The notes beneath the pieces were generated by a model that was not told the DNA's origin, made no database searches, and saw nothing but the letters and a program-made list of their open reading frames with translations. A stretch of 47,473 nucleotides of DNA from assembly GCA_016187405.1 (NCBI GenBank), contig JACPJS010000004.1, positions 1 to 47,473 on the forward strand. Direction: 5' to 3'. This document shows, one piece after another, positions 8,213 to 47,473 of the stretch; position 1 is the stretch's first letter; each line of letters opens with the position of its first letter. The position numbers were made by a program, and so were the translations under genes. This stretch comes from Candidatus Aenigmatarchaeota archaeon. Lineage in GTDB: Archaea > Aenigmatarchaeota > Aenigmatarchaeia > CG10238-14 > SCSR01.

Positions 8213-8716
8213 ATGAGACTTGTTAGGACGATTTTGGAAAGCCTTGGGAAAAATTGGAAGTGGATAGTGTTCGGAGCAGTACTTTATGTTCTACCTGCAT
8301 TATACAGATATTTCACAACAAATTCACTGGTTCCGATACTTGATTACACACTTTTCCTATATCAGCAAAATTCACAGATAATTCCAGTCAATCTAGAGAC
8401 TCTTGGAGCATTATTCCTGATACAAGGTTCGCTCGGTGCAATAGTAGGCAACAGTTTCTTTGAAATGATTCTGAAAAGAAAACTTGAAGGAACTGAAAAA
8501 TATCTTGCTTATGTCCTAGGATCTGTATCGTTTGCTTTGTTATGGACGGGAGTGCAATTTGTAGGTTACAATTTCCTGAATCCGGTTGGTCCTTGGGGTA
8601 ATTCTGTATTTCCAAGTTCGAATGTATACGGTAGAAATATACTGATTTCACTTACAGTCGCACCATTGTTGCCTTATTTGATAGAACTTCTTAACAGAAA
8701 AATTAAATTACATTAA
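8213..8716 (+). CDS. Hypothetical multi-helix membrane protein
   Basis: This 167-aa protein has about four predicted membrane helices (roughly residues 17-34, 58-80, 98-120 and 143-160) and basic loops. No family is recognised. It is divergent from the 107-aa protein across a 62-base promoter region and ends 3 bases from the convergent lipoprotein gene. Confidence 0.65.
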   Translation: MRLVRTILESLGKNWKWIVFGAVLYVLPALYRYFTTNSLVPILDYTLFLYQQNSQIIPVNLETLGALFLIQGSLGAIVGNSFFEMILKRKLEGTEKYLAYVLGSVSFALLWTGVQFVGYNFLNPVGPWGNSVFPSSNVYGRNILISLTVAPLLPYLIELLNRKIKLH

Positions 8717-8719
8717 AAA

Positions 8720-9175
8720 TTATTTTTTCTCTGGATCTTCGCAGATTTTTTGGTATAACTCTGTTGCGAGTTGCTTTAAAGTTTCTTCAGTTTCGTTGCT
8801 TTCTCTAACAAATGACATACCATCTTTAGCTAAAGAGTTCGTGTAATCATGGAGTCCTTTTGGACCATCTTGATCAAAAACTCTTGCTGGATATCTGGCC
8901 AAAATTTTCCCCCCATTATCTTTAACTACGCTGCCGAAAGACCTTCCATACTTGTTCAATAAAGTTGCACATTCATTTATTCCATTTGAACTAACTACAA
9001 GCCTGTTAAGCTTTAACACCTGACCCTCAGCGTAACGTGTTACAGGTGTGACTGTTACATTGAGTTTTGGGCTTTCAGAAGCTGGTGAAGCTGGTGAAGA
9101 GGAACATGCTGATAACAATGCAGCAGCTAAAACGATGCCTCTCCCGAACCCGCTGGTTAAATAACCATTTGACAT
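8720..9175 (-). CDS. Small lipoprotein
   Basis: This 151-aa protein has an N-terminal hydrophobic segment ending in a lipobox-like LLSAC (Cys about 24), followed by a Ser/Pro/Ala-rich linker (SSSPASPASESP). The mature domain (about residues 45-151) holds two more Cys (CATLL and KICED) that could form a disulfide. No family is recognised. It is divergent from the metallopeptidase at 9228, with which it may share a promoter region. It is likely membrane-anchored on the outer face. Confidence 0.65.
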   Translation of the reverse strand: MSNGYLTSGFGRGIVLAAALLSACSSSPASPASESPKLNVTVTPVTRYAEGQVLKLNRLVVSSNGINECATLLNKYGRSFGSVVKDNGGKILARYPARVFDQDGPKGLHDYTNSLAKDGMSFVRESNETEETLKQLATELYQKICEDPEKK

Positions 9176-9227
9176 AGTTTTTATATATTCAGATAACTTT
9201 ATAAGTTTAGTACTTTTTAGTAGTATA

Positions 9228-10082
9228 ATGTCATTTCGAATAGGTCAAGTACTTCAACTAAGTCTTTTTAGTCTTGTTTTATCTTGCACAACTGGGGTAG
9301 CGCAGGCACCAAATTCACCAATACCAACAGTGCCTCCTCAAAGAGAGATAGAAATACAAAATGCTACAAAATGCGAGACACAAAAGGTTGTTAGAGGTCA
9401 TTATCAATGGAACTGGTCCGATGGAACATGCTTTTTTGTACCTGCTGTGTCAATAGATTGCAAAAATTGCAGTAAGGAAAAATTAACTGAATTACAAAAA
9501 ATATTCGATGCAGGATACGATCAAGCTTTGAAAGGCTTTGGAATGGAACCTTACGAAAATCCTCGTTTTAGAGGACTTCATGTAAAAATTCACGAAAATC
9601 ATCTACAGTTTGGTCTAAACCATAGTCCATCAGATGCTTATCGAATCTATGAAGGACCTGGAGCAATCGCACATGAGATTACTCACGAATTCGATATCTA
9701 TTTACTGGGAGATCACGGTCAATCATGGTACGCAGAAGGCTTGGCCGACTACATCGATGATGGTGTAATAAGAAAGAATGCACAGAAAGTTATCAACGAT
9801 GTTAAAAAGGATCCAGAATTCTGGACAAAATATCCTGAATGGAAGGAAGTCCATGATACAGGTGCCCTTTACTTCGGTGAATTGATAAACAAAGGATTGA
9901 CGCCAGAGAAAAACAGATTGGCTCTTAAATATCTCCATGATACACGACCGTATCAAGGGTCTAGATGGGCATCCCCAAAAATCATAAATGCCGCTTACGA
10001 AAAAGCATTGGGATTGAATTCGGGTGAACTTGATTATCTTTTAGCGCTACTGAAACCAGGGTTAGACGCAAATAGACGTTAA
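9228..10082 (+). CDS. Secreted zinc metallopeptidase (HExxH, gluzincin-like)
   Basis: This 284-aa protein has a signal segment with a possible lipobox (LVLSC, Cys20). The zinc site is H149-E150-I-T-H153, with a third ligand expected at E170 in WYAEGLADY, the gluzincin arrangement (HExxH plus a downstream Glu in a helix). A small Cys-bearing N-terminal module (C49 to about C81) contains YQWNWSDGTCFFVP. Almost the same sequence recurs in the Cys-rich protein at 43801-44754, linking this enzyme to the surface cluster 34 kb away. It probably cleaves extracellular or envelope proteins. Confidence 0.75.
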   Translation: MSFRIGQVLQLSLFSLVLSCTTGVAQAPNSPIPTVPPQREIEIQNATKCETQKVVRGHYQWNWSDGTCFFVPAVSIDCKNCSKEKLTELQKIFDAGYDQALKGFGMEPYENPRFRGLHVKIHENHLQFGLNHSPSDAYRIYEGPGAIAHEITHEFDIYLLGDHGQSWYAEGLADYIDDGVIRKNAQKVINDVKKDPEFWTKYPEWKEVHDTGALYFGELINKGLTPEKNRLALKYLHDTRPYQGSRWASPKIINAAYEKALGLNSGELDYLLALLKPGLDANRR

Positions 10083-34072: not shown

Positions 34073-36100
34073 ATGGATAATTCTAATCTTATTGAAAAGT
34101 TTGTAGATTTCCTAAACGAATATTACAAGGACGAACTGGTGCAGGCTGCGAATGAAGGAAAAAAATCAATTAATGTTGATTTTTCAAAGCTGGAGCAGTT
34201 TGATGTCGACATAGCAGATTATCTTTTGGAAAATCCTGCCGAGACTATACCAACTGCACAGAAGGCTGTCAAGCAAATCGATGTCGGATATCTTGATGAA
34301 GGATTCAGATTGAGATTTTTCAACCTGCCAGAGAATAGAAACATCAGAATCAGAAATGTAAGAGCGGAACATATAGGGAAATTGATTGTTGTCGACGGTA
34401 TTGTAAGACGTGCGAGTGAAGTAAGACCTGAAGTAAGCGAAGCCATATTCCAATGTGTTGAATGTGGGAGTAATATGACGATGATTCAGGTTGAAAGGAC
34501 GATTCGTCCTCCGATGGAATGCGAGAATCCTGCATGCAAGAACAGACGCGCATTCAGGCTTGTCGATCAGAGATTGTATGATGCAAGGTGGCTTGTTTTC
34601 GAAGAGCCATTCGAGATTGTTGAAAGTGAGAAACCTTCCACACTAAGGGTGTATCTGAAAGAGGATTTGACGGTTCCTAAGATGCAAAACAAGACTGATC
34701 CTGGAAACAGAATCAAGGTGACTGGAGTAATAAAACAACTTCCGGTAAGGATGAAAGGAACTGTTCAGAGACAGATGGATATTTTCTTGGATGCAAATTA
34801 TGTAGAATCTGTAGAGGCTGAATGGGATGAGGTTGAAATAAAACCTGAACAGGAGCAACAAATAATAGAACTAGCAAAAAGTCCAGATGTTTATGAAAAA
34901 CTTGTGAAGTCAATAGCGCCTACTATATACGGTCATGATCATATCAAACTTGCAATTGCATTACAGCTGTTTGGTGGAGAAAGACATATACAGACAGACA
35001 GGTCACGTGTGAGAGGAGACATACATCTTTTGTTGATTGGTGATCCATCGACTGCAAAAAGTGTATTGATGAAAGTCACATCGACATTGATTCCACGTGG
35101 AAGATACGTATCAGGCAAGGGTGTGACACAGGCTGGATTGACTGCGTCTGTTGTGAAGGATGAAGAATTTCTCGGCGGTTGGGTATTAGAAGCTGGTGCA
35201 CTTGTTCTTTCAAACAGATCAATGATTGCTATAGATGAGTTCGAAAAGATTGAAAAGACAGATCAAGTTGCATTGCACGAGGCTATGGAGCAACAGACAA
35301 TCAGCATTGCCAAGGCAACTATAGTGGCAACATTGCCTGCACAGACTGCGGTGTTGGGTGGTGGTAATCCAAAGTTGGGAAGGTTCGATCCTTATGTTCC
35401 TATCAAAGAACAGGTTGACATACCAGAAACTTTGTTGACAAGATTTGATTTGAAATTCGCATTGAGAGACATACCGAATGCCGAGCGTGACTTGAAGGTC
35501 GCAGAACATATTTTAAAGGCAAGACACTTTTCAGAAGATACTGAAGAAGTAAAACCTGAGATAGATCCAGAGTTCCTAAGAAAATATATTGCATATGCAA
35601 GAAAGAATTGCCATCCGAAATTGACACATGAATCTGCAGATGCTATAAAAAACTTTTATCTTGAATTGAGACAGAGATCCAGAGAAGATTCTCCGATTTC
35701 AATAACACCAAGACAGTACGAGGCTTTGATAAGAATGGCAGAGTCTTCGGCAAAGATACAGTTGCGCGATTTGGTTACTGTCGAGGATGCACTTCGAGGT
35801 ATCGATTTGATGAACGAGTCGCTGAGAGAGTTTGGTCTCGAGCTTGAAACAGGTGAAATAGATATAGACAAGGTTGAAGGTGCTAGTGCGACATCATTGC
35901 AAAGAAACAAGATAAGGCACATCCGTGACATAATAGATGATTTGGAAAAGAATTATGAGAAAGGCGAGATACCGAAAGATGAAATAATTCGTATATCAAT
36001 GGAACAGAATATTAAAGTTCCTGAAGAAATATTGGCAAAGATGCAATTAGAGGGGTATATTTTCTCACCAAGACCCGGAGTCATATCAAAGGTAAAGTAA
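34073..36100 (+). CDS. mcm: Replicative helicase MCM
   Basis: This 675-aa MCM unwinds DNA at the replication fork as a hexamer. The zinc finger is C128-x2-C131...C150-x4-C155. Walker A is GDPSTAKS (323-330), Walker B IAIDEF (about 385-390), sensor 1 GGGNPK (about 429-434) and the arginine finger LLTRFD (R457). A winged helix follows at the C-terminus (about 610-675). No intein is present. The OB-fold RPA-like gene begins at the very next base after its stop, so the two are co-transcribed. Confidence 0.96.
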   Translation: MDNSNLIEKFVDFLNEYYKDELVQAANEGKKSINVDFSKLEQFDVDIADYLLENPAETIPTAQKAVKQIDVGYLDEGFRLRFFNLPENRNIRIRNVRAEHIGKLIVVDGIVRRASEVRPEVSEAIFQCVECGSNMTMIQVERTIRPPMECENPACKNRRAFRLVDQRLYDARWLVFEEPFEIVESEKPSTLRVYLKEDLTVPKMQNKTDPGNRIKVTGVIKQLPVRMKGTVQRQMDIFLDANYVESVEAEWDEVEIKPEQEQQIIELAKSPDVYEKLVKSIAPTIYGHDHIKLAIALQLFGGERHIQTDRSRVRGDIHLLLIGDPSTAKSVLMKVTSTLIPRGRYVSGKGVTQAGLTASVVKDEEFLGGWVLEAGALVLSNRSMIAIDEFEKIEKTDQVALHEAMEQQTISIAKATIVATLPAQTAVLGGGNPKLGRFDPYVPIKEQVDIPETLLTRFDLKFALRDIPNAERDLKVAEHILKARHFSEDTEEVKPEIDPEFLRKYIAYARKNCHPKLTHESADAIKNFYLELRQRSREDSPISITPRQYEALIRMAESSAKIQLRDLVTVEDALRGIDLMNESLREFGLELETGEIDIDKVEGASATSLQRNKIRHIRDIIDDLEKNYEKGEIPKDEIIRISMEQNIKVPEEILAKMQLEGYIFSPRPGVISKVK

Positions 36101-36826
36101 ATGATAGCGAAGAGATTGCCTGCAATTAAAGTGAGAATATCCGATTTGGCGAATGGTAAATATTTTTACGGCAGCAAGGAAGAACTCAAAGCAGGATATG
36201 TTATCACACCATACGGGGAGAAAGTGACAAGGGTAAATGTTTTTGGGACGGTTGTTGAAAAGTTTGTGAGCGATGCTGGAAATTTCTCCTCGATAACTGT
36301 TGATGACGGGACAGACACGATAAAGGTAAAATCGTTTGAAGGTAGCACGTTTGAAAAAATAGATTTGGGTGATTTGGTACGCGTGGTAGGAAAACTGAAG
36401 GAATATAATGGTGAGTTGTATGTCAATTATGAGATTGTCAGGAAAGAGACCGATCCTAATTTTGAACTGCTTGCAAAGACAGAAGTCTTGAACAATCTGA
36501 TACAGAAGAAGAGAATCATAGACAACATAAGGGCAATGTCAGACCAGATGGATTCGGAGGAACTCAGAAATTATGTCCAAGATACTTATTCGATGGACGA
36601 AGACACATTGGGTGTGATACTGGAAGCCAAGAAGAAAGAGATCGATTACAAGCCTGTTGTTCTTGATGTAATAAAGAAACTTGATGAAGGAAACGGGGCT
36701 GAGATATCGAAGATTTTTCAAGTGATAAACTTGCCGGAGAATGTTACAGAAAGAACTGTAAATGAGCTGATAAATTCCGGTGACTTGTACGAGCCTAAGA
36801 TAGGATTTCTGAAAAAGGTTAATTAA
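36101..36826 (+). CDS. RPA-like OB-fold protein with C-terminal winged helix
   Basis: This 241-aa protein has a central OB fold (about residues 44-112: VNVFGTVVEKFVSD...FSSITVDDGTDTIKVKSF...GDLVRVVGKLKEYNGELYVNYEIV) and a C-terminal winged helix (about 175-240, EISKIFQVINLPENVTERTVNELINSGDLYEPK). This is the layout of RPA32 or archaeal RPA-associated proteins, which bind single-stranded DNA. Its zero-spacing link to mcm supports a role in replication. Confidence 0.82.
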   Translation: MIAKRLPAIKVRISDLANGKYFYGSKEELKAGYVITPYGEKVTRVNVFGTVVEKFVSDAGNFSSITVDDGTDTIKVKSFEGSTFEKIDLGDLVRVVGKLKEYNGELYVNYEIVRKETDPNFELLAKTEVLNNLIQKKRIIDNIRAMSDQMDSEELRNYVQDTYSMDEDTLGVILEAKKKEIDYKPVVLDVIKKLDEGNGAEISKIFQVINLPENVTERTVNELINSGDLYEPKIGFLKKVN

Positions 36827-36848
36827 GCTATCTGCTCAATCTATTGAC

Positions 36849-37044
36849 ATGGGTTACGAAGATTTGCTCGAATCAGCATTAGAGAAGATACCAAAGAGGG
36901 AAAGCACCAAAGACAGGTTTGAGATACCGCAGGCTCAGATAGAACCTCAGGGCAACAAGACTCTGATAAAAAATTTTGTAGATATTGCAAGCAAATTGCG
37001 AAGGGAACCAGCACACATTTCAAGATATTTGTTCAAGCAGCTTG
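36849..37044 (+). pseudogene. aIF2-beta, N-terminal fragment (interrupted)
   Basis: The first 65 codons are clearly archaeal initiation factor 2 subunit beta: GYEDLLESALEKIPK is the aIF2-gamma-binding helix, then DRFEIPQAQIEPQGNKTLI and KNFVDIASKLRREPAHISRYLF. The family continues with about 75 more residues, including a CxxC...CxxC zinc ribbon, but here homology stops at LFKQL. The frame runs on into a Nudix gene with its own ribosome-binding site. A possible remnant of the missing middle follows the Nudix gene at 37491. The surviving fragment could still bind aIF2-gamma, but cannot be a working factor alone. Confidence 0.75.
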
Positions 37045-37088
37045 TCAACATACAAACCCATTTAACTTGTACATATCATAAGGAGATT

Positions 37089-37487
37089 ATGCCTAAAAAC
37101 TATGTGGCTGTCAAGTCGTTGATAGTAAGGAATAATAGGATTTTAATAATTAAAAGAAATTCAAATGAAGATTTTTTTGCTAATGAATGGGATCTACCTG
37201 GAGGTAAAGTGTTATTTGGTGAAAATCCCTTAAATGCTCTCAAGCGTGAAGTGAAAGAAGAATGCAGGCTTGAAATTAAACCTATAAAACCTATTGATGT
37301 CTGGACATTTTTCAAAAACAATAAACAAACACAAGTTATAGGAATAACTTTTCTTTCTAAAATTATTTCCGGTAAATTGAAACTGGGTGATGAACATTCG
37401 GATTATAAATGGATAAGAATAACCGAAGTCAAGAATTATAAAATACATCATGGGATAAAAGAGACAATTAAAAAGTTCAAGGAATGA
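37089..37487 (+). CDS. Nudix hydrolase (inserted within aIF2-beta)
   Basis: This 132-aa Nudix protein has a complete Nudix box G-x5-E-x7-R-E-V-x-E-E (GGKVLFGE ... REVKEE). These enzymes hydrolyse nucleoside diphosphates linked to another moiety; the substrate is not predictable. The start at 37089 has its own AAGGAG ribosome-binding site, although the frame is continuous with the aIF2-beta fragment upstream, so a fusion of 212 aa could also be made. The gene is more AT-rich than its replication-gene neighbours, consistent with acquisition. Confidence 0.8.
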   Translation: MPKNYVAVKSLIVRNNRILIIKRNSNEDFFANEWDLPGGKVLFGENPLNALKREVKEECRLEIKPIKPIDVWTFFKNNKQTQVIGITFLSKIISGKLKLGDEHSDYKWIRITEVKNYKIHHGIKETIKKFKE

Positions 37488-38413: not shown

Positions 38414-38454
38414 ATAAGGATTTAAAGATAACGTGATAGTTAAAATTAGATACT

Positions 38455-38772
38455 ATGGCAAAACCAAAAATTCCACCACTGTATAGTTTGGTAGACACGC
38501 TTTATCATACGGTAGTCGATAATTTGTCTGAAGAAATTCAAAAAAGGGAAGTTGCAGCTGCGAATGTTTTTGGAATTGTCGGAACTTATGTTGTTACCAA
38601 AGGATTGCATCAATTCATAGACGAAAAATATTTGATTGCCGGATTAGTAGGCATACCTATTGCTTATGCAGCAGCACAGCCAAAACGTGTCATATCAATT
38701 ATAAAGAACTATCCTGTATACACATCTGGAATGGTCGGTTGTGTCGAGGGCGGTTTGTTATCTCTACTCTAA
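38455..38772 (+). CDS. Small hypothetical membrane protein
   Basis: This 105-aa protein has two likely membrane segments (about residues 33-50 and 60-76) and a third weak one at the C-terminus (90-105). It is not recognised. A TTTAAAGATAA promoter lies about 30 bases upstream and it looks monocistronic. Confidence 0.6.
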   Translation: MAKPKIPPLYSLVDTLYHTVVDNLSEEIQKREVAAANVFGIVGTYVVTKGLHQFIDEKYLIAGLVGIPIAYAAAQPKRVISIIKNYPVYTSGMVGCVEGGLLSLL

Positions 38773-38822
38773 GTCGCTTCTATAACTTTAAGATTTAAAC
38801 CCAATGAATATACAAGATTCAA

Positions 38823-39119
38823 ATGTACTGGGCGAAAGTTTACGGCGTAAAGGACGAGATAGTAGTTGCTATATGCGATGAAGATTTGCTAGACAAGACA
38901 CTTAATTTTAAAAATAAGGTTGAAGTGAAAGTCACTAAGGGATTCTATGGCGACAGGTATATCGACGATACGGTTGCATTGAGATTGTTGGACAAGTCTA
39001 CGATCGGAAACCTGATGGGGAAGAATATCGTCAAGCTTGCGATGAAAAACGGTTTTATATCAAAAGAAAACATTATCAATATTGATGGTACTCCTCACGC
39101 ACAATTTGCTAAAATCTAG
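38823..39119 (+). CDS. DUF424 protein
   Basis: This 98-aa protein matches the archaeal DUF424 family: MYWAKVYGVKDEIVVAICDEDLLDKTL, FYGDRYIDD, the NLMGKNIVKLAMKNGFI helix, and the terminal NIDGTPHAQF. It is widespread in archaea and often near translation genes such as aIF2-beta, fitting its place here. Function is unknown. The next gene's start overlaps its end. Confidence 0.85.
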   Translation: MYWAKVYGVKDEIVVAICDEDLLDKTLNFKNKVEVKVTKGFYGDRYIDDTVALRLLDKSTIGNLMGKNIVKLAMKNGFISKENIINIDGTPHAQFAKI

Positions 39120-39489
39120 GAAAGGGCAGTTCTTCATACTTTCCGCAGTAGCTGTAGTTACGATACTGTTCTTCGTCAGCAGATGGATAGAACCGTTGCG
39201 TGTGACAGACACTTCTTCTGTAGTTTTGAGTGATGAAGCGTATGTTTTTGATAACATCAATGAAAAAACCACGAATGCAGTGAAAGGAAGTGAAAATTGT
39301 GATGAACTTGATTTCAATGTTCAGGAGTATAAGAATTTCGTAGAACGGTACGGTCTTGATCGTGGATATAAGATAACACTCGATTATTCAATTCCGTCAT
39401 GTACAGCAACAGCCACTGTCATATTTCATTTAAAATTACATTCGGATAAAGTGGATGCAGCAAGTGACTTTAGTATTGTATGGCCATGA
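39085..39489 (+). CDS. Pilin-like secreted protein
   Basis: This protein of about 134 aa has a short basic leader (NLLKSRKGQ) followed directly by a hydrophobic stretch FFILSAVAVVTILFFVS, the layout of archaeal type IV-pilin-like (class III) signal sequences. A globular domain with two Cys (SENCDELD and IPSCTAT) follows. ATG 39085 overlaps DUF424 by 35 bases. It converges with the LPEYGIEGFL protein and begins the surface-protein cluster. A related KGQ leader occurs at 43796. Confidence 0.65.
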   Translation: MVLLTHNLLKSRKGQFFILSAVAVVTILFFVSRWIEPLRVTDTSSVVLSDEAYVFDNINEKTTNAVKGSENCDELDFNVQEYKNFVERYGLDRGYKITLDYSIPSCTATATVIFHLKLHSDKVDAASDFSIVWP

Positions 39490-40020
39490 TCAAGTTTTAA
39501 TCATTTTGTTGGTTATTAAAAAGTAAATTACACCCACTGCCATCATTATAGTGAGGAATCCTTCAATTCCATATTCAGGCAGGCTAAACAGTCCGGATGT
39601 CACAGGTATGTTCACACTTTCAATCTCACACGTTGCACAATTAACAGAACTAACAGTTACAGTGATTTGACTGTCTATATCAACCAAAGAGGTGATGGAA
39701 AATTCTGTAAAAGCGATATCATCCGGGGCGACTGTTCCAGTTGTAACCTGATGCGGCACTATGTTCACAGTGTTGGGGTTTGATGATGTGATGCTCACGA
39801 TATAACTGTCCTCAGATTTTCCAATGTTTCCGACGTCTACACGAAAATAAACTGGTTTGCCTACATTAGATGTTATTGCCGCAGCAGTTCTAGTTGAAAA
39901 TTTGTAAGATGCGCTCGGGTCGACAACTTGGGACAATGCTATTTTTGAAAAAATAACCGCCCCTATCAAAACAGCCGCAAAGACAAATGCAATTTTATAT
40001 CGTGCATTAATTTCTATCAT
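39490..40020 (-). CDS. Secreted protein with LPEYGIEGFL C-terminal anchor
   Basis: This 176-aa protein has an N-terminal signal/anchor helix (about residues 7-27), a beta-sandwich domain of CARDB/NEW3 style (PVYFRVDVGNIGKSEDSYIVSI...TVTVSSVNC), and a C-terminal LPEYGIEGFL followed by a membrane helix and a basic end (NKMIKT). ATG 40020 is chosen over an upstream GTG because GGGGGTG sits at ribosome-binding distance. The same domain and anchor occur in the larger protein just upstream on this strand, so the two are paralogous at their ends. Confidence 0.72.
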   Translation of the reverse strand: MIEINARYKIAFVFAAVLIGAVIFSKIALSQVVDPSASYKFSTRTAAAITSNVGKPVYFRVDVGNIGKSEDSYIVSITSSNPNTVNIVPHQVTTGTVAPDDIAFTEFSITSLVDIDSQITVTVSSVNCATCEIESVNIPVTSGLFSLPEYGIEGFLTIMMAVGVIYFLITNKMIKT

Positions 40021-40089
40021 AAATCCCACCCCCTTTCGGTATTTCGCAAACTATCATTACCTTTGAGAATATAAAAAGAATTCAGAAAA

Positions 40090-42387
40090 TCAACGTCTTC
40101 TAAAGTTTTGTTTGGATATAGGATTATAAAATAAAAACACAGTTGCGATAAGAACGATCTGCAGAAATCCTTCAATTCCATATTCAGGCAGGTTGTAGGT
40201 TCCTGATCTTACAGGTATTGTAAATGTTTTCGGTGCGCATGTCGGGCAGTCCAACGAAGTAATAGTAAGTGAAATTGTATTGTCAACATCAACCAATGGC
40301 GTGACGGATATTATTACTGGGAATATTGCACGAGAGTTTACAGAATCTGTTGTTATGCTTGTTGAGGAAACGCTGACAAATTCAGGCGACGCGCTCGAAA
40401 TGCCAACATTGTATCTGTCGCTGAAAAGCCCATTGTTGATTATGTTCAATTCCAAAATGAATGGCTGTCCGACCGGCGTTGTTATTGTTCCTCCAGGAGC
40501 ATTTATATCAAAATCGTATGCATTGAAGTCGTGATTCACAACTGCTGTATACTGTCCTTTTCCTTGCTCAGGATCGTAAAACAAGCATTTTATTTTGTTA
40601 CCGTTCTGAGTGAAATCGTAAGCCGGATTCGTAACCGTGCAGCTTCCTTTTTTTAACGATTCAGTTCCTTGTTCGAACGGATACGGCGTACATGCTTTTC
40701 CTATTGCAGCACAGTCTTGAATCGTTGGATCACAGTTGAGCCCACATTCAACATTCATTTTATTCTCTGGAGCTGCTGTATAGTACGCGTTCCACCTCGC
40801 AGTAAATAGTTGATTGTTTCCAAAGTAATCAAATTCTGCAACGACAGGTGCTGATGGTGGCACTACAGAAAATCCAGGGTCCACCGACGTTCCGCTTGAC
40901 GATTTGATGTTGAAAGTAAGACTGCATGCTCCTCCGTTTGATTTGATATGGACTTTGAAAACATCCTGTACATTCTGCGGAGAACCTAAGCTAGTAGCAA
41001 ACGAGGATACCTTCCCTCCTGCTGTGTATGCGATTGTTCCAACTGGAAAGATTCCCGTGCTCGGATCACATTTGCCATAAGTGACGACATCAGTCAATAG
41101 ATATGTTGCAGGACATGTAACAGTAGACTCTTCTTTAGCTTTGATTATCCACGTATACTCACCGCTTTTTTTGTAAACCGCTGTCTTTGTAGGCAGATCG
41201 AAATTATCAGCTGCATTACCAGTCGGTTGAAGTGAAAATGATTGAACGCATGGAATTGGTTTACATGAGTATCCGGTTACACAGTTCTTCGAGTCAATGT
41301 TTGTTTTCAATTCTGTTCCGAACTGGCATTGAGGTTGCGTAGGTGGTGTAGGACAAGCACATGTATAACTCGTAGTACAACCGTTCGAATTTTTAATGGG
41401 TGTTGGATATCCTGTGCCGCATGTTGGTGCTGCCGGAGGAGCTGGGCAGCATGGTATCGATGGGACGCATGATCCACATGAACCGCTAGTGCATGTTTTC
41501 GTACATTGTCTGATTTGGCCATCAGGACATGTTATCGTGCCTGATCCGCATTGGTTCCCCGATATTGATTGGGCGTTTATGCACCCACGTGCATCATGAT
41601 AATCTGTCCCTGTGGGCGCGCATGCGTTTCCTGTAGGGCATGATGTTGGAGCATAACATAATGGTAGGTTTGGTCCAGGAGTGGGTACAGTTGTAACACA
41701 CGTGCTGTAGTCGACAATACAATTACTATTACATGATGGAGTTCCCGTTTTTCCCACAGATCCGCATGTATTGCCATTCAAATTGTTGCTGTCACATTGT
41801 TCACCAGGGTCTATTTGGCCGTTACCACATAATGAAGCTGGTGTTCTACCCTGGCATTGATAACTTGGTGAGCATTGATTGAAATTATTACAAACAGTTG
41901 TTTGACTACCATCTATACATGTTCCCGTTCCAGGTCCTCCAGAGCTTCCGCATGTTCCAAAACTGCCATCAGAAAAGCAGCATGTTTTATACCATTCACC
42001 TGTCGTACATTGGTCACTTCCGGTTGCGGGGCAAACACCTGGCTGAATTACATTACCCCCACCACATCTATCAAGGGCAGAGCATGATTTAATGTTCCAA
42101 TCACATGTTGCAGAACATCCTAATTCATCGAAATCCAATACAATGCCTATATAGGTATAACATGTCCACGTATTGTAATCAACGCTATTTTGAGGCTTTT
42201 CTCGGCATTGTGCTATAGCACCTACACATGATTCATCGATATTAGGTGCTTCATCCCCACGAACAACATAATTTACCGATTGGCCTGGATTATAGTTTCC
42301 GGGAACAGTAAACGATGTTGTAGTAGCTATCGAATTTTCAACAAATACGAACAAAATGAGTAAGGTTATTAATAATATATATCGCAT
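40090..42387 (-). CDS. Large Cys-rich secreted protein with LPEYGIEGFL anchor
   Basis: This 765-aa protein has a signal peptide (residues 1-21). Residues about 50-380 are very rich in Cys, Pro, Gly and Thr (many C-x3-6-C pairs, such as CGNGQIDPGEQC), probably a string of small disulfide modules. GNGQIDPGEQCDSNN resembles the myxococcal-type disulfide repeat. Beta-sandwich domains follow, ending in a CARDB-like domain and LPEYGIEGFL plus membrane helix and FRRR tail. It should be covalently or helix-anchored outside the cell: a surface adhesin or stalk-like protein by inference. Confidence 0.72.
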   Translation of the reverse strand: MRYILLITLLILFVFVENSIATTTSFTVPGNYNPGQSVNYVVRGDEAPNIDESCVGAIAQCREKPQNSVDYNTWTCYTYIGIVLDFDELGCSATCDWNIKSCSALDRCGGGNVIQPGVCPATGSDQCTTGEWYKTCCFSDGSFGTCGSSGGPGTGTCIDGSQTTVCNNFNQCSPSYQCQGRTPASLCGNGQIDPGEQCDSNNLNGNTCGSVGKTGTPSCNSNCIVDYSTCVTTVPTPGPNLPLCYAPTSCPTGNACAPTGTDYHDARGCINAQSISGNQCGSGTITCPDGQIRQCTKTCTSGSCGSCVPSIPCCPAPPAAPTCGTGYPTPIKNSNGCTTSYTCACPTPPTQPQCQFGTELKTNIDSKNCVTGYSCKPIPCVQSFSLQPTGNAADNFDLPTKTAVYKKSGEYTWIIKAKEESTVTCPATYLLTDVVTYGKCDPSTGIFPVGTIAYTAGGKVSSFATSLGSPQNVQDVFKVHIKSNGGACSLTFNIKSSSGTSVDPGFSVVPPSAPVVAEFDYFGNNQLFTARWNAYYTAAPENKMNVECGLNCDPTIQDCAAIGKACTPYPFEQGTESLKKGSCTVTNPAYDFTQNGNKIKCLFYDPEQGKGQYTAVVNHDFNAYDFDINAPGGTITTPVGQPFILELNIINNGLFSDRYNVGISSASPEFVSVSSTSITTDSVNSRAIFPVIISVTPLVDVDNTISLTITSLDCPTCAPKTFTIPVRSGTYNLPEYGIEGFLQIVLIATVFLFYNPISKQNFRRR

Positions 42388-42421
42388 GTATAATTATTTG
42401 TATTTTTAGTTAAATAATTCT

Positions 42422-43132
42422 TTATCTGAAATCTTCTACAAAAACATCTTTATAGGGTGTTTCAATATACGATTTTATTTCTTGAAAACCTCTGACTTTA
42501 TCAGGAAAATACTTTAATCTAACTGCCACATTAGAATCTCCACTTAATGTATCAATATGTTCACCGGCTATAGCCACTTTTTGACCTCTCTTAATTTCTA
42601 CCGGTCCTTGAGGCACTAAAATACTGCCTTTGCTCACTAGATAAGAAATAGCATATCCAGAATTATCAAATATTGTCAGTTCATCTGCTGTAGCACCAGA
42701 CCCGTATGATACATAATAACCATTTTCTCCAGAATAAATAATGTTTGATCCTCTAGAAAGAGTAATCTCAACTATGTTATACCCAGCTTGCAATTTACGG
42801 TTCGTCAAATTGCAGTTGACACAGGGTGAACTCAAATAAAAGCTTCCAAATCTCGATTGATATGGCGTTGGACTTGGAGATTGCGAAGCAACGACAGGTG
42901 CAGTTACTTGAATTGTTGGTGTAGGTATGGGAATGGGTGTTGGTGTAACAATCAAAGGTGTCGTTTGAATCGTCGGTGACACACTAGGAGCAACTGTTTG
43001 TGTTGCCACAGCATTTGTCTGAACTGGCTGTGTTGGTGTAGCACTATTGTTTCTATTACTAGCTATCCCAAAATAAAGTCCAAGAGTCAAGAGTGCAGAT
43101 GCCCCAACACCCACAATAGTACGTCTTCTCAT
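42422..43132 (-). CDS. Surface protein with Pro/Thr linker and M23-like domain
   Basis: This 236-aa protein has a basic start (MRRRTIVGVGAS) and a hydrophobic signal/anchor, then a Pro/Thr-rich linker (about residues 30-92). The beta-rich domain that follows (ENGYYVSYGSG...LVPQGPVEIKRGQKVAIAGEH) resembles the non-catalytic scaffold of M23/LytM peptidases (xxVxxGQxVxxGE), but the His/Asp zinc ligands are missing. It may be a binding rather than an enzymatic protein. The linker is similar in style to those at 27314-28591 and 46608-46943. Confidence 0.6.
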   Translation of the reverse strand: MRRRTIVGVGASALLTLGLYFGIASNRNNSATPTQPVQTNAVATQTVAPSVSPTIQTTPLIVTPTPIPIPTPTIQVTAPVVASQSPSPTPYQSRFGSFYLSSPCVNCNLTNRKLQAGYNIVEITLSRGSNIIYSGENGYYVSYGSGATADELTIFDNSGYAISYLVSKGSILVPQGPVEIKRGQKVAIAGEHIDTLSGDSNVAVRLKYFPDKVRGFQEIKSYIETPYKDVFVEDFR

Positions 43133-43178
43133 TTACCACACCTAAGTAACAAATATCTTAACTTACATATAAGCTTTT

Positions 43179-43796
43179 CTATACTGCAAAGTAGCTTGGC
43201 TTGTCGTTTGCCCAGTAATATGTATAACCAGAATGCTTTTCGAGATACAGTTGAACCGGAAACGGCGATGTAGACACGTTATCGAAAGCGCCGGCTACCT
43301 CCAATCTGAGCATTGCGTCAGTTCCATTTATAGAAAAAGGAATTTTCACTATTGCTACATTTTGGCCGCGATTAATTGAGTCATCCACCTTAACCAGCAG
43401 ATTGGAAGTATTGGCTACGACATAAACGGCGTAAATGTTGGCAGTGGGATGTTTAATGTAGATGTAAGTAATGTTATAATTCATCGAATTGTAGATATTC
43501 GTTACACGTCCAGGCGCTACCGCAGTCAGCATAGTGTTACTAGGTAAGTTAAAATCGACGTAAACGAAATTATTTGCAATCGGTGTCTCTTTTACGCTAT
43601 AGTTAATGCCATTTTCAAATGGAAGTGTAAATCCCTTGAACTCCTTAGCATCACCGTCCACACCGCCGAAATACTTGATTTCCAAGATGTTTTTTTCCGA
43701 TTCTGCTATCTTCTGGTTGCTGAGGATTAGATATGAAATCCATATTGCTACGGAAACCAAAAGCAAGATGATCAGAAACTGAACTTGACCTTTCAT
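43179..43796 (-). CDS. Membrane-anchored protein with degenerate M23-like fold
   Basis: This 205-aa protein has a KGQ-type pilin-like leader and one helix (MKGQVQFLIILLLVSVAIWI), followed by a beta domain. Within it, MLTAVAPGRVTNIY...YIYIKHPTANIYAVYVV...VKVDDSINRGQNVAIVKI follows the M23/LytM strand order (AxxxGxVxxxxxxx...VxxGQxVxxx), without the catalytic HxH or HxxxD. It probably is a structural or glycan-binding surface protein. It starts 4 bases after the end of the next gene upstream, so they are co-transcribed. Confidence 0.6.
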   Translation of the reverse strand: MKGQVQFLIILLLVSVAIWISYLILSNQKIAESEKNILEIKYFGGVDGDAKEFKGFTLPFENGINYSVKETPIANNFVYVDFNLPSNTMLTAVAPGRVTNIYNSMNYNITYIYIKHPTANIYAVYVVANTSNLLVKVDDSINRGQNVAIVKIPFSINGTDAMLRLEVAGAFDNVSTSPFPVQLYLEKHSGYTYYWANDKPSYFAV

Positions 43797-43800
43797 CCTA

Positions 43801-44754
43801 TCACGGTGCTTTGCAGCAAGATGCTACACATGTAGTTCCCACTTGGACAAGTCTTCCATTGTCACATCGCCACGTTATTGACTGGCCAGTTCCAGGCTGG
43901 TTTTCACACCCAGACAGCGTGCCTAGACATGTGGTTTTAGTGCCCGCTCCCGATTGAAGCGTCGTAGTGCCATCGGTAGCCACACTCGGCAATGTGCACG
44001 TTGGCAGTGGAACAAAGAAGCATGTATGGTCGTTCCAATTCCATTGATAATATCCACCGGATACAGTCTGCGCTTCACAAGATTGAGCGCTTTGTGATTC
44101 CGAATTGGATCTGCATTGATTCAAGAACGATTTATATGATGTTCCAGAGCAACATTGCTGTGTGCCACTGGGTGTTTGGCCATTACCAGCGCATGTGGGG
44201 CATGCCGGACATGTACTCGAAATAGTATGCTGGCAGTTATCTTGGCATCCTACAATCTGTCCGCAAGTTGATGCTGTGCATTGTGAATTGCAGCTCGTTA
44301 TCGTAGGAGTGCATTGAAAAGTAGGGCATGGGGCGCATGTTCCGGGCTTGTTACGATTACCACAATTATCAACGCATGTAGTTGGTTGTCCGCACGTCAC
44401 AGCAGTGCATACAGGCTCGCAAGATACGGCTACACTAGGAACACAACCTCCTCCGCCAGACGATGCTGGTTGTTGCACAGGCTGTTGAACTGGGGGTCGC
44501 TGTTGTGGCTCTTGCGTCGGGGCATTAGTCGGGTTCTCTCTGGTCCCCGGTCTTTCTGCAACATGTGTAAAGCCGGATGTTACAAGCTCTTTTTGTGCAA
44601 GATTCTGATTGATGGTGTCCGCAGATGCACCAAATCGTATCATTTCCCTTATCATCATGTCGAATAATTCATTAGCAGTCAGCAGCGCATATGCAGGGAC
44701 AATCAACAATCCTACAACGACGATGGCGATTAACAGTGCAAATTTGCTACCCAT
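43801..44754 (-). CDS. Cys-rich secreted protein with YQWNW module
   Basis: This 317-aa protein has a signal or anchor helix (residues 5-25), a Pro/Gln-rich linker (about 68-97), then a domain with about 35 Cys in repeating C-x3-C / CxxC units. Near residues 230-250 it has YYQWNWNDHTCFFVP flanked by Cys, nearly the same as in the HExxH metallopeptidase at 9228. Multiple disulfides imply an extracellular structural or adhesive role. It is in operon with the 205-aa protein. Confidence 0.68.
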   Translation of the reverse strand: MGSKFALLIAIVVVGLLIVPAYALLTANELFDMMIREMIRFGASADTINQNLAQKELVTSGFTHVAERPGTRENPTNAPTQEPQQRPPVQQPVQQPASSGGGGCVPSVAVSCEPVCTAVTCGQPTTCVDNCGNRNKPGTCAPCPTFQCTPTITSCNSQCTASTCGQIVGCQDNCQHTISSTCPACPTCAGNGQTPSGTQQCCSGTSYKSFLNQCRSNSESQSAQSCEAQTVSGGYYQWNWNDHTCFFVPLPTCTLPSVATDGTTTLQSGAGTKTTCLGTLSGCENQPGTGQSITWRCDNGRLVQVGTTCVASCCKAP

Positions 44755-44790
44755 AAACTAAATTACCTCGCGATTGTAATAAACTCATAC

Positions 44791-45318
44791 TCAACACTGC
44801 TTGCTGTCTTTCGGTTCCTTGCATATTGTAAAACGTGTATAGTTTGAAATTACAACAGACCAGTAAGTCTTGCTGGAGATGTCATTATCGCTTCTTTGGC
44901 AAGTCAGATACCCACCTATGCTGTCCAGATACGCGCATTTCCAGTCTGTATTGTGCACATCCGCAGTAGTGAAGTAAACATCCAACAGTGCAAAACTCTC
45001 ATTGACGGAATTCGTCGGAGTTAGTACGAAAATTTGGTAAACTGGCTGTGTGCCGGGATTTGACAGATATGCACCGAAACGTGTTTGGTTAACCATACGG
45101 CTGTCGTTAACATCCCACTGTGCAAAATATAACGATGAATTAACTTTAGTCACGGTCATGTTTTGTGTGAACTCACTATTCAGATTCATTGATATGAAAT
45201 TCGCCAATTTCTCTTCTGGGGCTAGTTGATTGGACAAGAAATCATTTACAAGCAAATATGCAATCGCTACAGTTGCGATGAAAAGTACGATATAGGCGAA
45301 ATAGTTGGGCAATTCCAT
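44791..45318 (-). CDS. Pilin-like secreted protein
   Basis: This 175-aa protein (ATG 45318; the frame is open further but the upstream part is basic and unlike a signal) begins MELPNYFAYIVLFIATVAIAYLL, a single N-terminal helix, followed by a globular domain with several N-glycosylation sequons and Cys pairs (WKCAYL, LTCQR, FTICKEP). The overall design is like the other single-helix proteins in this cluster. Its exact family is not known. Confidence 0.6.
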   Translation of the reverse strand: MELPNYFAYIVLFIATVAIAYLLVNDFLSNQLAPEEKLANFISMNLNSEFTQNMTVTKVNSSLYFAQWDVNDSRMVNQTRFGAYLSNPGTQPVYQIFVLTPTNSVNESFALLDVYFTTADVHNTDWKCAYLDSIGGYLTCQRSDNDISSKTYWSVVISNYTRFTICKEPKDSKQC

Positions 45319-45386
45319 ATTGAATTTAATTTGTTTTTTGGGGAATATATAGATTTTAGAGACTCTTTTCAAGTGAGACAACTCTT

Positions 45387-45533
45387 TTATTTCAGCATTA
45401 TAAAAATAACTATCGGATATTGGTATCGTAATAATTTGCGATACATCTCCTTTTTAGAAACAGCAACAACCACGATTATGAATCCTAAAGATACACCAAT
45501 GCAGAACCCAATTCCATATAGGATATTGAGCAT
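45387..45533 (-). CDS. 48-aa membrane micro-protein containing an rfcL-like segment
   Basis: This 48-aa ORF was found by reading the gap between the two flanking genes. It has one hydrophobic helix (LYGIGFCIGVSLGFIIVVVAV), followed by SKKEMYRKLLRYQYP. That last part is nearly the same as SKNEMYRKFSRYQYP in the clamp-loader large subunit encoded 1.6 kb upstream, and the DNA matches at 43 of 56 positions by hand count. It appears to be a duplicated rfcL scrap joined to a membrane helix. Start ATG 45533, stop TAA 45387-45389. Confidence 0.5.
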   Translation of the reverse strand: MLNILYGIGFCIGVSLGFIIVVVAVSKKEMYRKLLRYQYPIVIFIMLK

Positions 45534-45549
45534 TTATTAATTATAGATT

Positions 45550-46611
45550 TTATTGCTGTTGCGCTCTCCAGCTCAGATTACCGTAAAATGAAGTTGGTTT
45601 TATCAATGCATTTGATGATGAATAAATATTTTTGAGCGAGTCAAAACCTGCAGTAAACTTTGCATAATCTTCTTCTGCCGATTTGACTTTAATGTCAACC
45701 CATGATGAAGGATCGTGTATCGTGGATATTAGTGATCTCAAATTGTCATAATTGCTCGATAATCTATCAGCATTGTTGATGTATACACCACGTTCATCTT
45801 TAGATAAAGAATCAAACCTAGTGACAGGATAGACAGTTTCAACAGGTTTTGTTATTCCGAACGAGTCTGACCCCAAATCTGTTGCGGGTGAAACCCTGAA
45901 ACTTATAGCAATTGGTATTGCATCTGGAAACGTTGAAGGTATTTTAGTCAAACTATCCTTGTCGATTCTCCACAATCCCCTTTCAGGATTGACAGTACTC
46001 AATTGTATTGTATAATGCAAAACAGCAACAGCTTCTTCTTTCCCCTGTGGCGACACCTGATATAAACGTACAGAATCTATGTTAGAGACTTTACTTCCGC
46101 TTAATTTGTATAAAAGTTGCAAGAGACTCGATCCAGTATTTATCAAATCACTTCTTCTGACGCCACTGTAAACTACCAAGTCACCATTGTAAACCGGCAC
46201 ACCATTTATGACTTCTATGTAACTTTGAGAGAACGTTCCATTGAGTTTATTGTCAAATACCCAACCATAGAATCGATTGTCTCTGCCACCTATTGTTTTA
46301 TCATCGGAACTAGCCAAGTTATATCTGACAATGCTTTGCTCTACAGATAATGGATCTATAGTTCCAGTTTTTAATACATTGATTGGTTCTGGTATGTTCG
46401 CACTGAAATTCAACGAGTTAGGTCCTGAACCGATACGATAAGTACAATTTGGAGACGATGCTGTTGTCTTACAATTTTTATCTGTGATCGTAAACGTTTC
46501 ACCAGGTTTAAACTGTCCTGAAATTACTGATATTCCGGATGCATCCCCTCCCGATAATTTAGCAATCTCAAGTGAGCCACAATTAACAGTATTGTTATCT
46601 TGCGGTTTCAC
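45550..46611 (-). CDS. Extracellular domain of a probable frameshifted lipoprotein
   Basis: This 353-aa beta-rich protein without its own signal peptide starts at GTG 46611, overlapping the stop of the lipobox ORF (GTGA). The frame is open further upstream and reads KFIRIPISFETGKCTVKPQ, which flows well into the protein, suggesting that this is the body of a single lipoprotein and that a one-base shift separates it from its lipobox and linker. The C-terminal half is helical (IKVKSAEEDYAKFTAGFDSL). No family is recognised. Confidence 0.55.
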   Translation of the reverse strand: MKPQDNNTVNCGSLEIAKLSGGDASGISVISGQFKPGETFTITDKNCKTTASSPNCTYRIGSGPNSLNFSANIPEPINVLKTGTIDPLSVEQSIVRYNLASSDDKTIGGRDNRFYGWVFDNKLNGTFSQSYIEVINGVPVYNGDLVVYSGVRRSDLINTGSSLLQLLYKLSGSKVSNIDSVRLYQVSPQGKEEAVAVLHYTIQLSTVNPERGLWRIDKDSLTKIPSTFPDAIPIAISFRVSPATDLGSDSFGITKPVETVYPVTRFDSLSKDERGVYINNADRLSSNYDNLRSLISTIHDPSSWVDIKVKSAEEDYAKFTAGFDSLKNIYSSSNALIKPTSFYGNLSWRAQQQ

Positions 46612-46943
46612 AGTACATTTTCCAGTTTCAAATGATATGGGGATACGGATGAATTTCTTACTCTGATACCAAGACTAAAATGACTTGTCAGCCCATAATC
46701 AACTAGACTAAATGTGAGATTTGCTGTAGGTGAAGGTATTGGCGATTGAGTGCGTGGTGCGATAATTAATGGTGTTGATGTAGGAGTAGGAGCAACAGTA
46801 CGTATTGGTGTAGGTGCAACTGTCGGTGCATTTGTTCTCACTGGAGTGTTTTGTGGTGAGGGAATTGACTGTGTAGGTGAGCATGCTACAGCACTTATTA
46901 ATACAATTTTTCCAACATCGAAAAGTCTGTCAACCAGTTTCAT
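46608..46943 (-). CDS. Lipobox and Pro/Thr linker (N-terminal part of lipoprotein)
   Basis: This 111-aa ORF has a signal peptide with lipobox (ISAVAC, Cys21), then a Pro/Thr/Ser linker with repeated APTP and a RTQSP unit nearly identical to the one in the lipase at 27314-28591. Its C-terminal 30 residues (FSLVDYGLTSHFSLGIRV) look like the first strands of a beta domain that is then cut short. The 353-aa ORF follows in a different frame. It is either a frameshifted gene or two coupled genes. Confidence 0.55.
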   Translation of the reverse strand: MKLVDRLFDVGKIVLISAVACSPTQSIPSPQNTPVRTNAPTVAPTPIRTVAPTPTSTPLIIAPRTQSPIPSPTANLTFSLVDYGLTSHFSLGIRVRNSSVSPYHLKLENVL

Positions 46944-46979
46944 AATCCAATTAAGACAATAAACTTTTTAAGGTTTATT

Positions 46980-47473
46980 TTATGCCGAGAATTTTATATA
47001 CGGCAGAAATTCCTTTCGAATTTTTCTAGTCGAACAGTGCAACTCTTTCGATAGTTCCAATAGTTTTTCTTTCTCTTCCTTCCTCTCAAACTTGCTTCCA
47101 CCAAGCACGATCATATTGTTCGGATATTGATATCTAGAAAATTTTCTGTACATCTCATTTTTGGATACAGCAACCCCGCCAGTCATCAAATCTATCATGT
47201 ATGCAAGGAACTTCCAGTTCTGTCTCGACCTTATCCTCTGTCTGAACATATCAGCCTTGCTCAATACATCATACGCGCGTGCAATCTCCTCTGGTTTCTC
47301 ATATTCATTCGGAATGTTGTTTTCAATCCACCAGAATATTTCCTCAGGATCCTTGTCAACGTTGTTTATCGCAAGTTTGGCTGCAAGCGCAGTTTTGGTT
47401 TTGAATATCATCATCAATGCATTGAAAATACTCTGCTCCTTCTCACGAGACGTTACAGAATCCAAGTCATTTT
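46980..47473 (-). CDS. rfcL: Replication factor C large subunit (C-terminal part, cut by window end)
   Basis: The frame runs past the window end; at least 164 codons are visible. WWIENNIPNEYEKPEEIARAYDVLSKADMFRQRI, then a RQNWKFLAYMIDLMTGGVAVSK helix and the ending LHCSTRKIRKEFLPYIK match the C-terminal collar domain of archaeal RfcL, the clamp-loader subunit that places PCNA on DNA. No C-terminal PIP box is seen (ends YIKFSA). It is a strong archaeal marker, and the source of the repeat in the 48-aa ORF downstream. Confidence 0.88.
   Translation of the reverse strand, partial: NDLDSVTSREKEQSIFNALMMIFKTKTALAAKLAINNVDKDPEEIFWWIENNIPNEYEKPEEIARAYDVLSKADMFRQRIRSRQNWKFLAYMIDLMTGGVAVSKNEMYRKFSRYQYPNNMIVLGGSKFERKEEKEKLLELSKELHCSTRKIRKEFLPYIKFSA

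Follow-up and report, generated by a model that had tools for sequence, protein, structure and literature searches.

Gene content and order around the fragment

The window, which is the whole stretch of DNA that was analysed (47,473 nt, the entire contig C15), belongs to an uncultivated archaeon with a 440-kb genome in 16 contigs that is only partly complete (73%) and may mix strains, and whose nearest named relatives are groundwater Candidatus Aenigmatarchaeota genomes. At the end of the window lies the 3' part of rfcL (46980-47473, minus strand), which encodes residues 210-372 of the replication factor C large subunit (best family, NF003229) and is cut by the contig end. Directly downstream of it comes a putative lipoprotein (46608-46943) and then a 353-aa ORF without a confident family (45550-46611), both on the minus strand. 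The subject of this analysis, a 48-aa ORF at 45387-45533, also on the minus strand, is found between the 353-aa ORF and a 175-aa protein (start at 45318) that has a hydrophobic segment at its N-terminus. All but rfcL lie in a minus-strand block of genes, mostly for predicted exported proteins (38414-46979), that separates rfcL from its conserved convergent partner cluster -- MCM, an OB-fold protein and an eIF2B-domain/Nudix protein (34073-37487, plus strand).

Several other features of this region were noted in passing. A Peptidase M23 domain protein is encoded at 43179-43796 within the exported-gene block, and the proteins encoded at 39490-40029 and 40090-42387 have a common LPEYGIEGFL motif near the C-terminus, followed by a hydrophobic stretch; a 30-nt repeat (39554-39583 and 40163-40192) underlies this pair of motifs. 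The motif may be a sorting signal, since an exosortase/archaeosortase-family gene (PF09721; C1:8819-9265) is present in the genome. The protein encoded at 36849-37487 has a stretch of eIF-5/eIF-2B domain and, after it, a Nudix domain. In relatives the similarity covers only about 51-70 of its residues, so that a fusion is possible.

Two versions of rfcL

A second, complete rfcL has been identified on contig C8 (6766-7884), where it follows rfcS as in the relatives of the genus; with NF003229 it reaches 409 bits, the cut-off being 280. The window and C8 genes are 98% identical at the amino acid level and 89% at the nucleotide level. The 106 nt at the contig end (47368-47473, minus strand) are identical to C8 rfcL, all that is visible of the identical side given the truncation of the window gene, and beyond them there are 53 mismatches in about 380 nt (~14%), nearly all at third codon positions. 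The contig ends where the two versions become identical, from which we infer that the assembler met a strain bifurcation there. The window rfcL and the 3' half of the C8 gene appear to be alternative alleles at a single locus, not paralogues, and the gene order agrees: in relatives, rfcL lies beside the MCM cluster, as it does in the window. That the window gene is an out-of-place second copy was considered and set aside in view of this position and of the allele bifurcation at the contig end. The right end of C8 matches no other contig of the genome.

On C8 (locus L003), a VanW-like gene (PF04294, 7922-8577) is apparently split into two frames, through either a frameshift or an assembly error. 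The putative lipoprotein at 8617-9612 of the same contig has a near-identical leader, MKLVDxLFDVGK, and upstream DNA in common with the window lipoprotein (46608-46943; tblastn E=3e-15), DNA 46875-46972 being 85% identical to C8 8586-8688; the mature parts of the two proteins are unlike.

The rfcL-derived block

Within the 48-aa ORF, a 55-nt block (45413-45467, minus strand) corresponds to rfcL codons 309-326, VAVSKxEMYRKxxRYQYP. It encodes VAVSKKEMYRKLLRYQYP, the RfcL counterpart being VAVSKNEMYRKFSRYQYP, and it matches window rfcL at 47120-47174 in 44 of 55 nt (80%; blastn E=2e-8), in the same orientation and 1707 nt away. An earlier note, made from the sequence alone, had placed this match at 45414-45469 and 47121-47176, with 43 of 56 positions identical and a spacing of 1.6 kb; the match is real, with coordinates that were off by one or two bases and an actual spacing of 1.7 kb. 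Chance similarity of AT-rich DNA, which the same note had raised against its own reading, is ruled out: the best ungapped 55-nt match between the 231-nt gap region and rfcL is 44 for the window copy and 49 for the C8 copy, as against a maximum of 34/55 in 1000 dinucleotide shuffles of the gap region compared with either rfcL, and nothing above 34/55 was obtained with other pieces of the window. An assembly artefact is an unlikely source, because the fragment differs from both known rfcL alleles (at 6 and 11 of the 55 sites). The derivation of the block from rfcL is supported by these sequence comparisons.

The archaeal replication factor C large subunit (NF003229) is the source of the 18 codons, out of 372 in rfcL, which are too few for RfcL function; they form an internal piece of the gene that has none of the ATPase domain and cannot serve as a clamp loader. 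The homology ends sharply at both borders of the block. A gapped alignment to window rfcL had looked suggestive of homology extending into the flanks, but anchored extension there scores no better than shuffles, and no rfcL homology was detected in either flank.

Sharp borders, flanks without homology and an internal piece of rfcL are all consistent with a templated patch, in which some 55 bases would have been copied from an rfcL allele as filler during double-strand break repair, in a single event that displaced no gene. This is the main rival to the interpretation given below, and it needs fewer steps for the fragment itself; it leaves the mosaic of rfcL's own alleles unexplained.

Allele of origin

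The fragment is identical to C8 rfcL at 49 of 55 nt and to window rfcL at 44. Several sites have a state that is common to the fragment and C8 and differs from the window copy and most relatives, notably a CGY arginine codon, the corresponding codons of relatives being nearly all AGR or AAR. In a tree of the 55 nt the fragment groups with C8 (bootstrap 92), and its union with the window copy is rejected by the AU test (p 0.011); once the rest of rfcL is added, the alternative topologies are not rejected at 5% (AU p 0.09). The assignment depends on few sites in a fragment of only 55 bases. The fragment is nearer to C8 rfcL, and the adjacent window rfcL is probably not its source. The proposal that a segment of rfcL had been copied downstream is supported as regards the gene, and disfavoured as regards the neighbouring copy of it.

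A plain tandem duplication of the neighbouring rfcL that later decayed would agree with the shared orientation and the 1.7-kb spacing, and would be feasible if the adjacent gene had been replaced afterwards; with the fragment nearer to the C8 allele and the AU values just given for joining it to the adjacent copy, we regard this origin as highly improbable. The same affinity bears on the templated patch, whose source must be a C8-type or third allele instead of the adjacent gene, and which would therefore have been copied from another strain or before an rfcL replacement. Such a patch is judged unlikely.

The 48-aa frame

The ORF at 45387-45533 exists as first described, and its hydrophobic stretch is real (Kyte-Doolittle 19-residue maximum 2.65). 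Residues 1-22 are hydrophobic, residues 23-40 are rfcL-like (15 of 18 identical to RfcL) and residues 41-48 are unrelated, so the rfcL-like part is the middle of the protein, not the whole C-terminal half as had been thought. The codon score of the frame, -0.05, falls in the off-frame range (coding mean 0.27, 5th percentile 0.10), with the limited power that a short frame allows. No TATA-like box lies at -25 to -30 and no Pfam or NCBIfam match was found; in four genus relatives only rfcL itself was matched, plus one weak match with a stop. Viral contigs contained no relative of the protein, and a viral carrier was discarded as a candidate. When the flanks were shuffled with the block held fixed, a frame of at least 48 aa arose in 7% of cases, and one with a similar helix and 40 aa or more in about 1%.

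A young micro-gene has been suggested for this frame; it would encode a short membrane protein with its rfcL-derived tail facing the cytoplasm, and would be transcribed with the surrounding surface genes. The frame is open in the frame of rfcL, a basic segment follows the hydrophobic helix, and such a helix is uncommon among the shuffles. Of the six differences from C8, three are amino acid changes, a number too small to show decay. Against a micro-gene are the low codon score, the lack of an upstream signal and the lack of relatives, other than rfcL, in the genus or the viral contigs. The helix signal is mild and was chosen after the fact, and a young gene is therefore possible but quite unlikely. 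That a replication-gene fragment fused to a membrane helix would constitute a very young gene, in a surface-gene island of a small-genome Aenigmatarchaeota archaeon, is in our estimation very doubtful.

The rfcL-MCM interval

In G012, G013, G015, G033 and G025, which belong to the same family or order as the window's genome, rfcL converges on the cluster of eIF2B-domain protein, OB-fold protein and MCM, and is only ~2-4 kb away from MCM; where the sequence extends far enough, RNase HII and a class II tRNA synthetase come after the cluster. The window keeps the same gene order from 30.6 to 38.4 kb; its MCM-rfcL distance is 10.9 kb, and the exported-gene block inside it is absent in several family- and order-level relatives. 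Within the genus the interval measures 11 kb in the window, 15 kb in G003, 22 kb in G004 and 69 kb in G002. The enlarged intervals hold different genes, many of them encoding predicted exported proteins, and simple rules assign lipoprotein-like or hydrophobic N-termini to many of the ORFs that follow rfcL in C8, G003, G004 and the window. Immediately past rfcL the members of the genus have no DNA in common, except that G001 and G002 share genes farther away; the rfcS-rfcL side, in contrast, is conserved across the genus. The expansion of the interval, the unshared downstream genes and the conserved rfcS side together point to the rfcL 3' end as an insertion hotspot, used recurrently by exported-protein genes in this Aenigmatarchaeota genus.

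The earlier note had also proposed that the fragment is a scar that shows where surface genes were inserted, and had advised looking at the locus in relatives. The comparison supports the proposal, the interval being short in several relatives and expanded with exported genes here.

MCM itself contains a long insertion that looks intein-like in G004 (C2:708514-713184) and G015 (L115, 4255-7410); in G004 it keeps an open frame (1582 aa).

Proposed origin of the fragment

It appears rather likely that an rfcL allele left these 55 bases behind as a non-functional relic in the insertion hotspot at the rfcL 3' end, and that the 48-aa frame around them is a chance frame. Incoming DNA, with another strain's rfcL 3' end and surface genes, would have recombined with the resident rfcL, presumably of the C8 type, through homology inside the gene, and at its other end the joining would have been independent of homology; the 3' end of the resident gene would have been pushed downstream and later mostly deleted, leaving 55 bases. 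The match far beyond chance, the closer relationship to C8, the mosaic of rfcL (106 identical nt, then ~14% divergence), the order-level rfcL/OB/MCM arrangement kept around the insert, the non-coding-like codons of the 48-aa frame, and downstream genes that vary in the genus beside a constant rfcS-rfcL side are all consistent with such a relic. Against it are the helix, expected in about 1% of cases by chance, the AU p of 0.09 with rfcL context, and the lack of a second rfcL fragment beside rfcL in 46 other loci, where nothing was seen but the rfcS paralogue and short matches due to chance. Its weak point is that no remainder of the rfcL 3' end is detectable beyond the fragment, though a one-sided exchange should leave some, so that an extra deletion is needed.

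Homology-facilitated illegitimate recombination (PMC3240628) joins one end by homology and the other without it, and remnants of the resident gene may then stay next to the insert. The allele mosaic of rfcL on the homologous side and the fragment beside the insert resemble this; the process is described there in bacteria, whereas here it would be deduced from sequence in an archaeon, and nothing else of the displaced rfcL end is left. In the T6SS clusters of Vibrio cholerae, effector modules are displaced sequentially and relics of the displaced genes lie downstream (PMC5361080). The likeness is in the conserved upstream anchor, the variable modules beside it and the relics downstream; here, in contrast, a housekeeping replication gene serves as the anchor, exported proteins make up the cargo, and only 55 bp, less than a whole gene, persist as the relic.

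The fragment is minor, and its setting is more informative: a hotspot anchored by a highly conserved replication gene would let strains exchange surface genes.
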